Position numbers and translations under genes: made by a program
Shown: positions 59,506 to 64,000 of the stretch, one piece after another
How the letters are laid out: every line of letters begins with the position of its first letter
Position numbering within the stretch: position 1 is the stretch's first letter
Origin: Calvatia gigantea
Taxonomy: Eukaryota > Basidiomycota > Agaricomycetes > Agaricales > Lycoperdaceae
DNA: 64,000 bases
Reading direction: 5' to 3'
NCBI GenBank assembly: GCA_025093985.1
Contig: JACAAK010000014.1
Span: forward strand, 62,001-126,000
The notes under the pieces: generated by a model
What the model saw: only the letters and a program-made list of their open reading frames with translations
The model's database searches: none
What the model was told of the DNA's origin: nothing

Positions 59506-60104
59506 CTACCCCTCGTTTTCATCACCCTCAGCGGGGGAGTCTGCCCGTTGAACAGCAGCGGCAGGAGCGGCAGGAGCGGCAGGAAACCATCCATATTGTC
59601 TCAAGTCGACCCTGAACTCCCCAGTGCGACCTTCGGACACTTCAACACCCTCAGCGACGAGAGCATCGCGTTGCCTGTTCGCACCGTCAGTTCCTGGGCC
59701 CCTCGAGGATATTGTGCCAGAGGAACCAATGACGCGGTGCCACGGAACGGGTGGGTTTGTAGCGGGACTTAGGAATTTGAGGGCTGGAAGGGTCGTCATG
59801 AGAAGTGGATATACTGCAGGGTGGACGGCACGTTTCCAACCTTGGCCGACATGTCTAGAGTGTTTTGGCATCCCTATGAGTTTTGCGATGTGTCCTACCA
59901 GCGATTTCGGACTTGATTCAGTTACGGAGTTTTGTCAGAGTGAAACGGACACTGACCATAAGTGGTGACATGAGCATTTGGTATAGTTCTGACAGTTTCA
60001 TAGACCTGATGAATGATCAAGTCCACGTTGTGCTTTCGGGTGGATTGGCCCCTACCGCTACATGGAATTCTGCGCTGTCCATGACCGTAGTAGAGAACCT
60101 GCAT
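59506..60104 (-). CDS. atl1: Alkyltransferase-like protein, Atl1 type
   Basis: Two exons, 59957-60104 and 59506-59894 (GT-AG, phase match across TAT-G/GA). The core reads IIHQVYETVRTIPNAHVTTYG, HIAKLIGMPKHSRHVGQGW, then PVPWHRVIGSSGTIS. This is the MGMT DNA-binding domain with Trp in place of the alkyl-accepting Cys (PWHRV for PCHRV), the defining feature of Atl proteins. Fission yeast Atl1 binds O6-alkylguanine, flips it out and channels it into nucleotide excision repair without removing the alkyl group. The length of about 178 residues exceeds the usual 110-120 because of an Ala/Pro-rich C-terminal tail. The start at 60104 keeps the frame; the downstream ATG giving MDSAEFHVAVG would look more typical but is out of frame, so the N-terminus may hide a small indel. 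Confidence 0.85.
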
Positions 60105-60482: not shown

Positions 60483-62126
60483 CTATGCTTGAAATCGGAC
60501 ACCCTCCGCCGCTGCCGCAGATACCCTGACTCGAAATTCCCTACTCGCGTCAGCAATTGCCTTCGCAACCGCAGTTCTTCTCCTCGAAGCTCGAAGCTCA
60601 GAGGAAGCGTAGCCAGCGTAAGGCGTCCTCTCAAGCGCATTCCACCATTCTGCTGCAAAGGGGTGTCCCGGAGAACTGATCATGCCCCATGGTTTCGCTG
60701 TCGGGGGCTGAACGAAGGGATTCAAAACCTCGGCAAGCGACGGATTGACTGGACCAGTAAAATGGACAACCGCAGGATGGTCCACCTCCTCAAGATTGAG
60801 CCGCTCTCGATCTGCAGAGGGGTAACGGGCGTATGTCCCAAGTCCTTGCGCGTTCCAGTACAAAGGGAGGGGTACCCAGTCATTGAAATGCGCGTTTAAT
60901 ACATCCTGATCCCGAAATTTCGAATCCCCCATCCTTCTACCCTCCTCCACCAACGCCTCACCAGACGCTCTTATTTTCGTCAAGTTCATGAGCATGACCC
61001 CTGCGTTAAAGTACGGCTGCTTCTCTACCGAATCGTGTCCCATGGGATGGCCTATATCTGGGACAGCACCGACCGCCCTATCCTGGATGTCGGTTTCCCA
61101 GAGAGGCGTTAGATCGCCCCGAACCAGGACATCGCCATCGAGATAGAGAGCCCGCTCGACCGGAAGAACGCGATGGAGTTCAAGTTTGGCCCATATAGGA
61201 CCTAACTCTGCCGCAAGACTATCTTTTGGCAAGGGGAGAAAGGAGATTGTCACGTCGCCGGTCCTTGGAAGGGCACCACGCAATTTGATCTTGTCCTCCT
61301 CTGCCAAACCACAGTCAACGACATATATGGAAATCCGACCTGGTGTATGTTCCACCGCACTACTAATTGCAACGGCGGCAGGCATAGCGTACGACGAATC
61401 AATGGTCAAGGCGAGATTGATCCCATAGCCCATCGCCTCCTTGATTGATATGTTCGTTTCCCTTCCCGAAACAAGAAACCCTATCCGCATCTCAACCGAC
61501 TTTCGCAGCACAACCTGGTAGTGCTCGGGGCCAGAGAGTCGTTCATATTCTCCCTTATGAAGCTGTAAAAAGGCGTCGACGCCTCTCTTCGGGTGATGCA
61601 TGCTATCCTCAGGCTGCGCCTCCCAATGGTAATCATCGAAGATGACGATAGCTCCCTTCTTCGCTAAGCGCCAACACAATTCCCCATCAAGGAATGTATC
61701 ATCTGCCTCATGCGATCCGTCGATGTATACCAAATCGAATCCCGGCACCTTTGCCTCCATTTCCTCCTCCAGCAATGTCATCAGGGCAGGGAAGCTGAAC
61801 TGTGGGAGGATGCGGTAGTTCTTCCCCGCGAGGCTGAGGTTATGCTGGATCTTATCATAACGTTCCTTTCCCGCTGCGGTGGTTAAGAGGTCAAAATGGT
61901 CGATGCAGACGATGGAACCGGTCGGGTTGCATAGCTCCTCCAAGAGAAAGACAGCGGAACGGCCCTCCCAGGACCCAATCTCCAACACACGGGGGGAGGA
62001 CGTTCGACCCTTAACGTCTTTGATTAGGGGCCTCCAACCTGGAATATTGTGTGAAAACCAGTCTTGCGTCTGAGTAAAGTGATAGTCTGGTTTTAATGCG
62101 AGAGCATTGATCGTGGGGGTGGTCAT
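60483..62126 (-). CDS. SAM methyltransferase - GT8 glycosyltransferase fusion
   Basis: 547-codon single exon from ATG 62126. Residues about 45-210 are a class I SAM-dependent methyltransferase of the Methyltransf_24 kind: VLEIGSWEGRSAVFLLEEL (SAM loop), IVCIDHFD, DLVYIDGSHEADDT and AIVIFDDYHW. Residues about 235-480 are a family 8 glycosyltransferase: LALTIDSSYAMPAAVAISS, RALYLDGDVLVRGDLTPLW (DGD metal site, residues 330-332), PYFNAGVMLMNL and DQDVLNAHF. There is no signal peptide or membrane helix, so a cytosolic enzyme is likely. The protein could transfer a sugar from a nucleotide sugar and O-methylate the sugar or acceptor; the acceptor is unknown. Its divergent neighbour is a GDP-mannose-3,5-epimerase-like gene that could supply an unusual nucleotide sugar. 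The frame is clean, unlike several neighbours. Confidence 0.85.
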   Translation of the reverse strand: MTTPTINALALKPDYHFTQTQDWFSHNIPGWRPLIKDVKGRTSSPRVLEIGSWEGRSAVFLLEELCNPTGSIVCIDHFDLLTTAAGKERYDKIQHNLSLAGKNYRILPQFSFPALMTLLEEEMEAKVPGFDLVYIDGSHEADDTFLDGELCWRLAKKGAIVIFDDYHWEAQPEDSMHHPKRGVDAFLQLHKGEYERLSGPEHYQVVLRKSVEMRIGFLVSGRETNISIKEAMGYGINLALTIDSSYAMPAAVAISSAVEHTPGRISIYVVDCGLAEEDKIKLRGALPRTGDVTISFLPLPKDSLAAELGPIWAKLELHRVLPVERALYLDGDVLVRGDLTPLWETDIQDRAVGAVPDIGHPMGHDSVEKQPYFNAGVMLMNLTKIRASGEALVEEGRRMGDSKFRDQDVLNAHFNDWVPLPLYWNAQGLGTYARYPSADRERLNLEEVDHPAVVHFTGPVNPSLAEVLNPFVQPPTAKPWGMISSPGHPFAAEWWNALERTPYAGYASSELRASRRRTAVAKAIADASREFRVRVSAAAAEGVRFQA

Positions 62127-63013
62127 GGTTGCGTAGTTGCTCTGGGTTGGGGGTCTGGTATGTCTTGACTGGTCTCACTTAATGGAAACTTTCTACTCTA
62201 GTAACGGAGTGTTCAGCATGAGGCAGCTTACTTCAACCCAAGCTTCCCTCAACCCAAGCTTCGTCTTCTCCGCAGCAGTATTGGACCAACATTACGTCAC
62301 ACCCAAGCTCCTTCTAAGCCGTATTTACGGCGATGAACCTATCGGAATCCCGCAGCGGAGGCCTCAAGGCACCACGCCCACAATCTAATAATGTCCCATT
62401 AACAAAATCCTGTGCACTTAGGCTGGCTGAACAAGACGGGGGATGATGGCGGGAAGGAATGGGAATTTGGGCTGACACATCGTGACGGGGTGGTACCCAG
62501 TAGCCAGTGGGTAGGGGGCTTTTTCGCCCAACTTTTGAGTGCAATTGGGGCTGATTTCCGTCCTGTGGGGGAGGGCCTACATCACTCTAATCAGAGGCGT
62601 ACTCAATATGGTGGTATCCTTCCAATAAGAAGGGTCATTTGGTATTCTTAGGTGATCAAACGGCAGTGAGGGGAAGTAGAGTGGCAGGAGAAGGATGATT
62701 AGTGTTTCACTTAGGGTGTAATTCCTCACGCCGGCAGTTGAGGGTGCCCTGTGGTAGGCTTCTTACTACAGCTATTAATGTCGCTGTGGCATCGGTTGTA
62801 ATCTTAATCCACACGGCGATCAGGAAGATGAGGGGGGGGGGGTACACGGAGAATCACACCTGCAGCCTGGGGTGGGGCCAACTTGCTATTCAGTGTTTTC
62901 GTTCCTGGTCACCTGATGTGTAACAAGATTTGGCTCCGTTCCACTGGTCCTCAGTCAGGCCTTCAGGTATTTATACCCACCCACTCACAAAGGATGGTAC
63001 CCCAAAGGTTGCG
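62127..63013. promoter_or_regulatory. Divergent promoter region, MTase-GT8 / epimerase
   Basis: An 887 bp region separates the divergent ATGs at 62126 and 63014, so it must hold both promoters. It contains a run of G near 62834-62842 and direct repeats of caacccaagctt at 62237-62262. No coding sequence recognised. Shared regulation of the two genes is possible but not shown. Confidence 0.4.
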
Positions 63014-64000
63014 ATGCTAACCGTCCTTGTAACTGGAGGGCATGGGTTTATCGTAGGTCCGCCGCGATTTCGTTGTCTCCTACCTGACACGGTGCGACAG
63101 GGAGCACATGTTGCAAAACGCCTGTATCATACCGGCGCGTACTTTGTTAAAGTTGTGGACATATCGCCCGTACCGCCTATCGAAGGTCCTATTTGTCACC
63201 AGTTTATTCAAGGAAACCTATGTGATATCGATACCTGTGTCGCTGCTCTTCGAGGTGTCGAATGGGTGCTACACTTCGCCGCCAACATGGGAGGCATGGG
63301 CACTATTCACAGCGGCAACGACAGCGCGATCTATGGACAAAACCATACAATGACCCAGAACCTCCTCAGAGTCATAACCCTTCCCGGCAATGTTGTGACA
63401 CGACTTTTTTACGCCTCATCTGCCTGTGTCTACCCCGAAGCTCTTCAAACCGACAAAGGTGTTTCTCTCCGCGAGACAGATGTCTTTGCTGGAGATATTC
63501 CTCGGCCTCAAGGGCTTTATGGTTTAGAGAAACTCAACTCCGAACTCCTCGTCGCACAATATAGCAAAAAGGTTGACGTTCGCATTGCGCGTTTTCATAA
63601 TATCTATGGGCCTGGGGGGGCTTGGAACAACGGCCGGGAGAAGGCGCCTGCTGCGTTTCTCCGCAAAGCGCTGGTGTGCCGGCATCTGGCAGAGAAGGAT
63701 GACGTCACGCCAGCTTTCGAAGTATGGGGGGATGGCACCCAGCGTCGTAGCTTCCTCTACATTGACGATGCGGTGGATGCCATCCTCAAACTACTTTTCT
63801 CGTCGTGCTCCAGTCCCGTCAACATCGGCTCTGATCATTCTGTTTCCATCCAGCAACTCGCTGAGCTGGCTTTGCGTTGCTCCGGGGCCCAGGCCATGTT
63901 TACTTATGATGGATCGAAGCCTGTAGGTGTAGGCGGCCGAAACTCGAATAACGAATTTTCAAGATCGGTACTCGACTGGACGCCATCGGTATCTTTGGAA
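63014..64000 (+). CDS. GDP-mannose 3,5-epimerase-like NAD-dependent sugar epimerase (partial)
   Basis: Exon 1 63014-63052 (MLTVLVTGGHGFI), intron 63053-63100, exon 2 from 63101 open to the window edge, so the 3' end is missing. Extended short-chain dehydrogenase features: GGHGFIG NAD site, HFAANMGGMG, FYASSACVYPE and YGLEK (Tyr-x3-Lys). RFHNIYGPGG, REKAPAAFLRKAL, WGDGTQRRSFLYIDDAV, PVNIGSDHSVSI and GVGGRNSNN match plant GDP-mannose 3,5-epimerase block by block. That includes the Cys of SSAC and the Lys of REKAPAAF, which act as the acid/base pair in the plant enzyme. The likely product is GDP-L-galactose or a related GDP sugar. It is divergent from the methyltransferase-GT8 gene. A different extended-SDR epimerase activity cannot be excluded. 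Confidence 0.85.
   Translation, partial: MLTVLVTGGHGFIVGPPRFRCLLPDTVRQGAHVAKRLYHTGAYFVKVVDISPVPPIEGPICHQFIQGNLCDIDTCVAALRGVEWVLHFAANMGGMGTIHSGNDSAIYGQNHTMTQNLLRVITLPGNVVTRLFYASSACVYPEALQTDKGVSLRETDVFAGDIPRPQGLYGLEKLNSELLVAQYSKKVDVRIARFHNIYGPGGAWNNGREKAPAAFLRKALVCRHLAEKDDVTPAFEVWGDGTQRRSFLYIDDAVDAILKLLFSSCSSPVNIGSDHSVSIQQLAELALRCSGAQAMFTYDGSKPVGVGGRNSNNEFSRSVLDWTPSVSLE

Follow-up and report, generated by a model that had tools for sequence, protein, structure and literature searches.

Conserved linkage of a GDP-mannose-3,5-epimerase–glycosyltransferase fusion with a methyltransferase–GT8 fusion in Agaricomycetes, a candidate module for an O-methylated glycan

At one end of a 64,000-nt stretch of the Calvatia gigantea genome (the window, positions 62001-126000 of contig C6 in an assembly of 45.95 Mb in 77 contigs), a gene for a fused methyltransferase and GT8 glycosyltransferase (MTase-GT8) lies next to a gene resembling GDP-mannose-3,5-epimerase (GME). 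The locus raises the question of whether the two genes act together in making, transferring and methylating an unusual sugar. On balance, we favor the reading that both genes are one conserved Agaricomycetes module in which a GDP-L-sugar is made and transferred and the product is O-methylated. This reading builds on the observed gene structure and domain architectures, on catalytic motifs that are intact, on the fold predicted for the GME domain, and on the linkage of the two genes in contigs and locus tags. The features of the locus are as follows.

60483..62126, minus strand: MTase-GT8 fusion, from its open reading frame (ORF) and domain profiles
62127..63013, no strand: divergent intergenic region, 887 bp between both start codons, from the coordinates
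63014..63052, plus strand: exon 1 of the GME-GT-GT2 fusion, MLTVLVTGGHGFI
63053..63100, plus strand: in-frame intron of 48 nt, bounded by GT...AG and containing a CTGAC branch-like site
63101..64000, plus strand: exon 2 of the GME-GT-GT2 fusion as far as the window reaches, covering the greater part of GME (SSAC, YGLEK, GREKAPAAF)
C6:126001-128190 (L005 2001-4190), plus strand: rest of the GME-GT-GT2 gene, on the same contig

The 547-residue MTase-GT8 fusion of the original prediction was confirmed as an intact single-exon ORF, in which both domains scored far above their cut-offs: Methyltransf_24 (PF13578) reached 61.7 bits at residues 48-166 against a cut-off of 26.3, and Glyco_transf_8 reached 96.6 bits at residues 237-461 against a cut-off of 24.3. 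No convincing transmembrane segment was found along the 547 aa. In an alignment of this protein with 53 relatives from the best 120 of 393, the GT8 DxD (D330, D332), the C-terminal KPW (K478-W480) and three MTase aspartates (136, 164 and 165) were each conserved in 54 of 54 sequences. D243 of the GT8 domain, aligned by eye with Asp8 of LgtC, which we take to be the uracil-binding residue, was Asp in 48 of the 54. The fold matches of the predicted GT8 model included entries with UDP-sugars. In this model the domain resembles the UDP-galactose-using LgtC and its donor is most likely a UDP-sugar, which agrees with the earlier caution that GT8 enzymes mostly use UDP-sugars and that the donor link was inferential. 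The match to LgtC and WbbM, presumably bacterial LPS enzymes, was limited to the GT8 part (model residues 233-514) and excluded the N-terminal Methyltransf_24 domain. Near the MTase-GT8 gene, an ORF at 59506-59871 on the minus strand carries a motif that, we assume, resembles an alkyltransferase-like DNA repair protein.

The head-to-head epimerase with its SSAC, YGLEK and REKAPAAF motifs was likewise found on the plus strand, and the intergenic region would, judging from its coordinates, be a promoter common to both genes. The epimerase gene starts at 63014 and stays open to C6:128190, 2,190 bases beyond the window. Splicing out 63053-63100 rejoins GGHGFI and GAHV into GGHGFIGAHV and yields a product of 1,042 residues. 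Four predicted relatives (P0023, P0024, P0030 and P0036) have insertions at the intron position that look, from their sequence, like the same intron left unspliced; since they sit at the same place, the intron appears to be old. Beyond the window, the gene encodes the end of the GME domain, a GT-A-like middle domain (about residues 358-613 of the spliced product), a GT2 domain from about residue 625, and a hydrophobic tail (residues ~896-941 and 1023-1042). The second gene had been taken for an epimerase only, but its epimerase part makes up just the N-terminal third of a GME-GT-GT2 fusion. About 98 kb away, at C6:226482-227139 (L009), we observed a broken remnant of the C-terminal part of the fusion (residues ~820-1041), in two frames and with 63-64% identity to the intact gene; neither GME nor MTase-GT8 pieces turned up beside it.

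The N-terminal third is an extended-SDR domain (PF01370, 104.9 bits), and its NAD-binding GGxGxxG reads GGHGFIG after splicing. Its best solved relative was a plant GME with an E value of 1.1e-62, compared with 2.7e-16 for the best non-GME entry, and it shared 44% identity with the Myrciaria enzyme (8sg0 piece). The residues aligned with Cys145, Tyr174, Lys178 and Lys217 of the Arabidopsis enzyme (2c59), which we take to be the catalytic Cys, Tyr-x3-Lys and Lys of plant GME, were all present, and each was invariant in the 45 near-full-length relatives chosen from the best 120 of 413. The predicted fold was also closest to GME, ahead of other SDR epimerases by about 11 Z units. Hence, the assignment as GME held under the catalytic-residue, fold and sequence tests, and the domain would convert GDP-D-mannose to GDP-L-galactose or GDP-L-gulose. 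Whereas the fungal protein opens with GME and continues into transferase domains, the plant GME chains with solved structures stand alone, at 379-409 residues.

The fungal GME also did not group with the plant enzymes. A tree of 101 rows was built, for which 93 loci gave 91 ORFs and 89 were used, two of 280 aa or less being left out. In this tree, which has an unsettled bootstrap, many unresolved forks and some viral branches of great length, the ten fungal rows formed one group (98/100) apart from the plant rows, and two plant GME rows grouped with four Bacteroidota rows (94/86). An origin of the fungal GME from plants was therefore not supported. GME is common in bacteria, with at least 571 prokaryotic relatives of the GME domain alone (the best 80 were used), so there is no need to assume a plant source, and the original view of GME as specially plant-like did not stand.

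The stem of the fungal group is long, at 2.16 changes per column, which means that the substrate or the sugar may have shifted. The module could then be the same with a different substrate or product (e.g., GDP-L-fucose-related or another NDP-hexose), giving a methylated glycan without L-galactose. A GMD-like (GDP-mannose dehydratase-like) gene on contig C4 of the same genome fits this alternative, since GDP-fucose precursors may exist; its presence also indicates that the GME fusion is not simply a GMD substitute. The invariance of all four catalytic residues and the clear lead of GME among the fold matches speak against a shifted sugar, which we regard as unlikely, though a serious contender.

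The GT2 domain (PF00535) scored 54.8 bits against a cut-off of 23.3, and its DDD (D714-D716) and GGEDI motifs, as well as a GDD in the middle domain, were invariant in the same 45 of 45 relatives. The middle domain itself had no Pfam match at E 1, one weak PHROG match (E 0.085), and no convincing solved relative, the best PDB profile match having an E value of 0.62; no characterized relative was found. One of its relatives, P0252, matched PF13712 at 0.0034 with 17.5 bits, below the cut-off of 27. Fold lists for the whole fusion were filled by GME and barely sampled the middle and GT2 domains, and the viral fold list showed epimerases and GT-A-type proteins. Among the short relatives of the middle domain, P0270, P0277, P0282 and P0283 were stand-alone proteins, and many other rows of the list were plain fragments of the fungal fusion. 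Three relatives (P0252, P0257 and P0263, of which only P0252 reaches PF00535) start near the middle domain and continue into a GT2-like stretch without GME. These are gene predictions on short contigs, in which a GME exon could have been lost to an intron or the contig end, and they suggest that GME may have joined an older middle-GT2 protein. A 144-aa piece of the middle domain (P0254) occurred in a 10.7-Mb record of the liverwort Calypogeia fissa, as a fungal transfer or a contaminant. A stand-alone 245-aa relative was present on a phage contig (L026:4983-5720), where the surrounding ORFs are presumably phage head genes.

Both architectures are widely kept. At E 1e-3, 413 relatives of the GME fusion were found among the 7,994 scored candidates with the most words in common, and 119 of the best 120 contained both PF01370 and PF00535, the exception being P0006 (872 aa), without PF00535. 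For MTase-GT8, 393 relatives were found among 7,996 scored candidates, and all of the best 120 had both domains. Relatives among the best 120 of each list were 48-83% identical, and the nearest named ones in these lists were Leucocoprinus, Leucoagaricus and Macrolepiota (60-72%), a pattern suggestive of Agaricaceae for this fungus. The named rows of both lists are, we assume, Agaricomycetes. With scores well beyond the cut-offs for the domains, and with architectures kept at 48-83% identity, the fusions are beyond chance.

To compare the two lists, the longest contigs of their best 120 entries were matched, and an equal size in bp was taken as the same contig, which for Mb-sized contigs means one contig and not adjacency. 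The lists had 38 longest-contig sizes in common. Among the species or strains named in both, 32 of 35 had an equal-sized contig, whereas about 0.52 same-contig pairs were expected with the second gene placed at random in 45 Mb; the mismatches in Lentinula raphanica, Agrocybe pediades and Trametes sanguinea may be due to multi-sequence clusters from different assemblies. When the comparison was limited to contigs of at most 250 kb, 12 of 14 agreed in size, against 0.05 expected. The remaining rows (58 versus 48) shared six sizes (7,160, 9,994, 10,433, 14,979, 31,530 and 49,175 bp), while sizes jittered by up to 10% gave a mean of 0.1 and a maximum of 2 common sizes in 2,000 trials. Names in one list alone (27 for the GME fusion, 37 labels for MTase-GT8 with one species twice) are uninformative, each list being a best 120. 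All seven legible pairs of locus tags were consecutive:

Leucocoprinus birnbaumii, g9726/g9727
L. leucothites, 009659/009658
Bondarzewia, g8857/g8856
Pleurotus ostreatoroseus, 010337/010338
Stygiomarasmius, 015707/015706
Paramarasmius, 003528/003527
Tulasnella, 010532/010531

Gene order in the other species was thus deduced from locus tags and equal-sized contigs, and the head-to-head arrangement was read in the C. gigantea DNA. With Tulasnella confirmed by look-up as Cantharellales, the linkage apparently spans Agaricales to Cantharellales, for example from Pleurotus to Tulasnella, and these same-contig and tag counts make it very unlikely that the pairing, which the original prediction had allowed might be accidental, is a coincidence.

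The range of the pair also bears on the idea that, instead of a glycan, a small natural product or a glycoside of the ascorbate type is made or tailored by the module. A methyltransferase with a glycosyltransferase is a common tailoring set, although natural-product clusters usually have a narrower range than one reaching Tulasnella. Passages of one study describe 6-deoxy-L-ascorbate and ascorbate glycosides made by fungi (PMC4396506). The epimerase, however, is fused to transferases and not to an enzyme releasing L-galactose, and we consider a small product improbable. That the genes are neighbors by old chance and serve separate pathways, for which the reading of the head-to-head orientation in one species leaves some room, is highly improbable given the linkage across these orders, the excess of same-contig pairs and the consecutive tags.

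In the favored module, the GME domain would convert GDP-D-mannose, which is made in the cytosol, to GDP-L-galactose or possibly GDP-L-gulose, and the sugar nucleotide would be handed to the GT2 or the GT-A-like domain of the same chain. A rare sugar nucleotide that is made and used on a single chain would be less prone to leak away. This enzyme would be held at a membrane through its C-terminal helices, its catalytic domains facing the cytosol, and would attach the L-sugar there to an acceptor on the cytosolic side. The soluble MTase-GT8 would then extend and cap the product, its GT8 domain adding a further sugar, most likely from a UDP-sugar donor, and its Methyltransf_24 domain performing the O-methylation, to give an O-methylated oligosaccharide, polysaccharide or glycolipid. 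The individual reactions and their order, the sugar, its acceptor and the placing on the cytosolic side are all inferred from gene anatomy and linkage. The original prediction had the locus make, transfer and methylate a GDP sugar. Since glycosyltransferase domains are carried on the GME polypeptide, the user of the GDP-sugar is likely there and need not be GT8. A more specific reading, that mushroom-forming fungi share the pair as an undescribed two-protein line in which four glycosyl- and methyl-transfer domains and an epimerase build a cytosolic-side O-methylated glycan with L-galactose or L-gulose, is offered tentatively, at somewhat below an even chance. Both the sugar, produced and consumed by a single polypeptide, and the class of glycan would then be additions to the present fungal map.

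Viral and prokaryotic origins of the fusion were also considered and rejected. The whole fusion had no relative in a scan of IMG/VR, and a scan of prokaryotic contigs with the fusion profile gave ten pattern matches and no relatives. In viruses, the GME domain occurred at 12 loci (21-40% identity), and the middle domain at none with a close profile and at one phage locus with a wide profile; the fusion was not seen when these 12 GME loci and one middle-domain locus were searched for all domains. The MTase-GT8 profile matched 115 viral loci, of which the best 80, at 24-39%, nearly all covered the MTase part only. Among the best 80 bacterial and the 13 viral loci together, other domains were limited to one GT8 (L100), two weak GT2 (L076 and L048) and one middle domain (L026).

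The closest bacterial likeness was the L100 locus of a Cohnella strain, an apparent polysaccharide locus in which 30 bp separate a GME gene from the GT8 gene that comes after it (L100:5974-7896). Its neighbors are presumably GMPP, GalE and further transferases. In contrast to the fungal pair, the genes at bacterial GME loci are separate and unfused, a GT8 match beside GME occurred in one of the best 80 of at least 571, which tells against the favored module, and no methyltransferase-domain match was found in these best 80. Like the fungal pair, the methyl-capping systems of bacteria and the methylated polysaccharide systems of mycobacteria combine a glycosyltransferase and an O-methyltransferase. 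To our knowledge they contain no GME and the families are unrelated, so the likeness is one of logic only. In a mushroom polysaccharide, O-methylated galactose has reportedly been described from Phellinus igniarius.

The module combines known domain families and one unnamed domain in a combination that we did not find described. Searches covering mostly non-subscription literature returned no paper on GDP-L-galactose in Basidiomycota and none with the two Pfam names of the pair together. The fusion or gene pair was found nowhere in the available portions of the literature on GME or L-galactose in fungi and on methylated glycans, nor was L-galactose reported in a basidiomycete glycan in the available portions of the literature joining L-galactose, basidiomycete and polysaccharide. 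A survey of nucleotide-sugar enzymes in 491 fungal taxa included GMD and GDP-fucose synthase; the available main text left GME and L-galactose unmentioned, and its three '5-epimerase' passages concerned the rhamnose enzyme (PMC8092308). If the favored reading is true, a large fungal class makes L-galactose or an epimer absent from the available text of that survey (PMC8092308), and the fused enzymes indicate where the L-sugar is used. Passages of other papers mention L-galactose as a purchased standard (PMC7317320) and as a sugar that inhibits the adherence of red cells to hyphae of Rhizoctonia (PMC5535827). A Coprinopsis enzyme oxidizes L-galactose about as fast as L-fucose, and the available account of the enzyme names no fungal source of L-galactose (PMC4332668). 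Tectonin-family lectins are described, in the part of the text available, as binding O-alkylated sugars only (PMC5238581). For O-methylated sugars, the gene pair provides candidate genes.

Elsewhere in the assembly, contig C28 (L188, 42,142 bp) carries intronless ORFs in a row and is probably a bacterial contaminant; we take these ORFs to be phosphoglucomutase-, galE- and glucose-6-phosphate isomerase-like.
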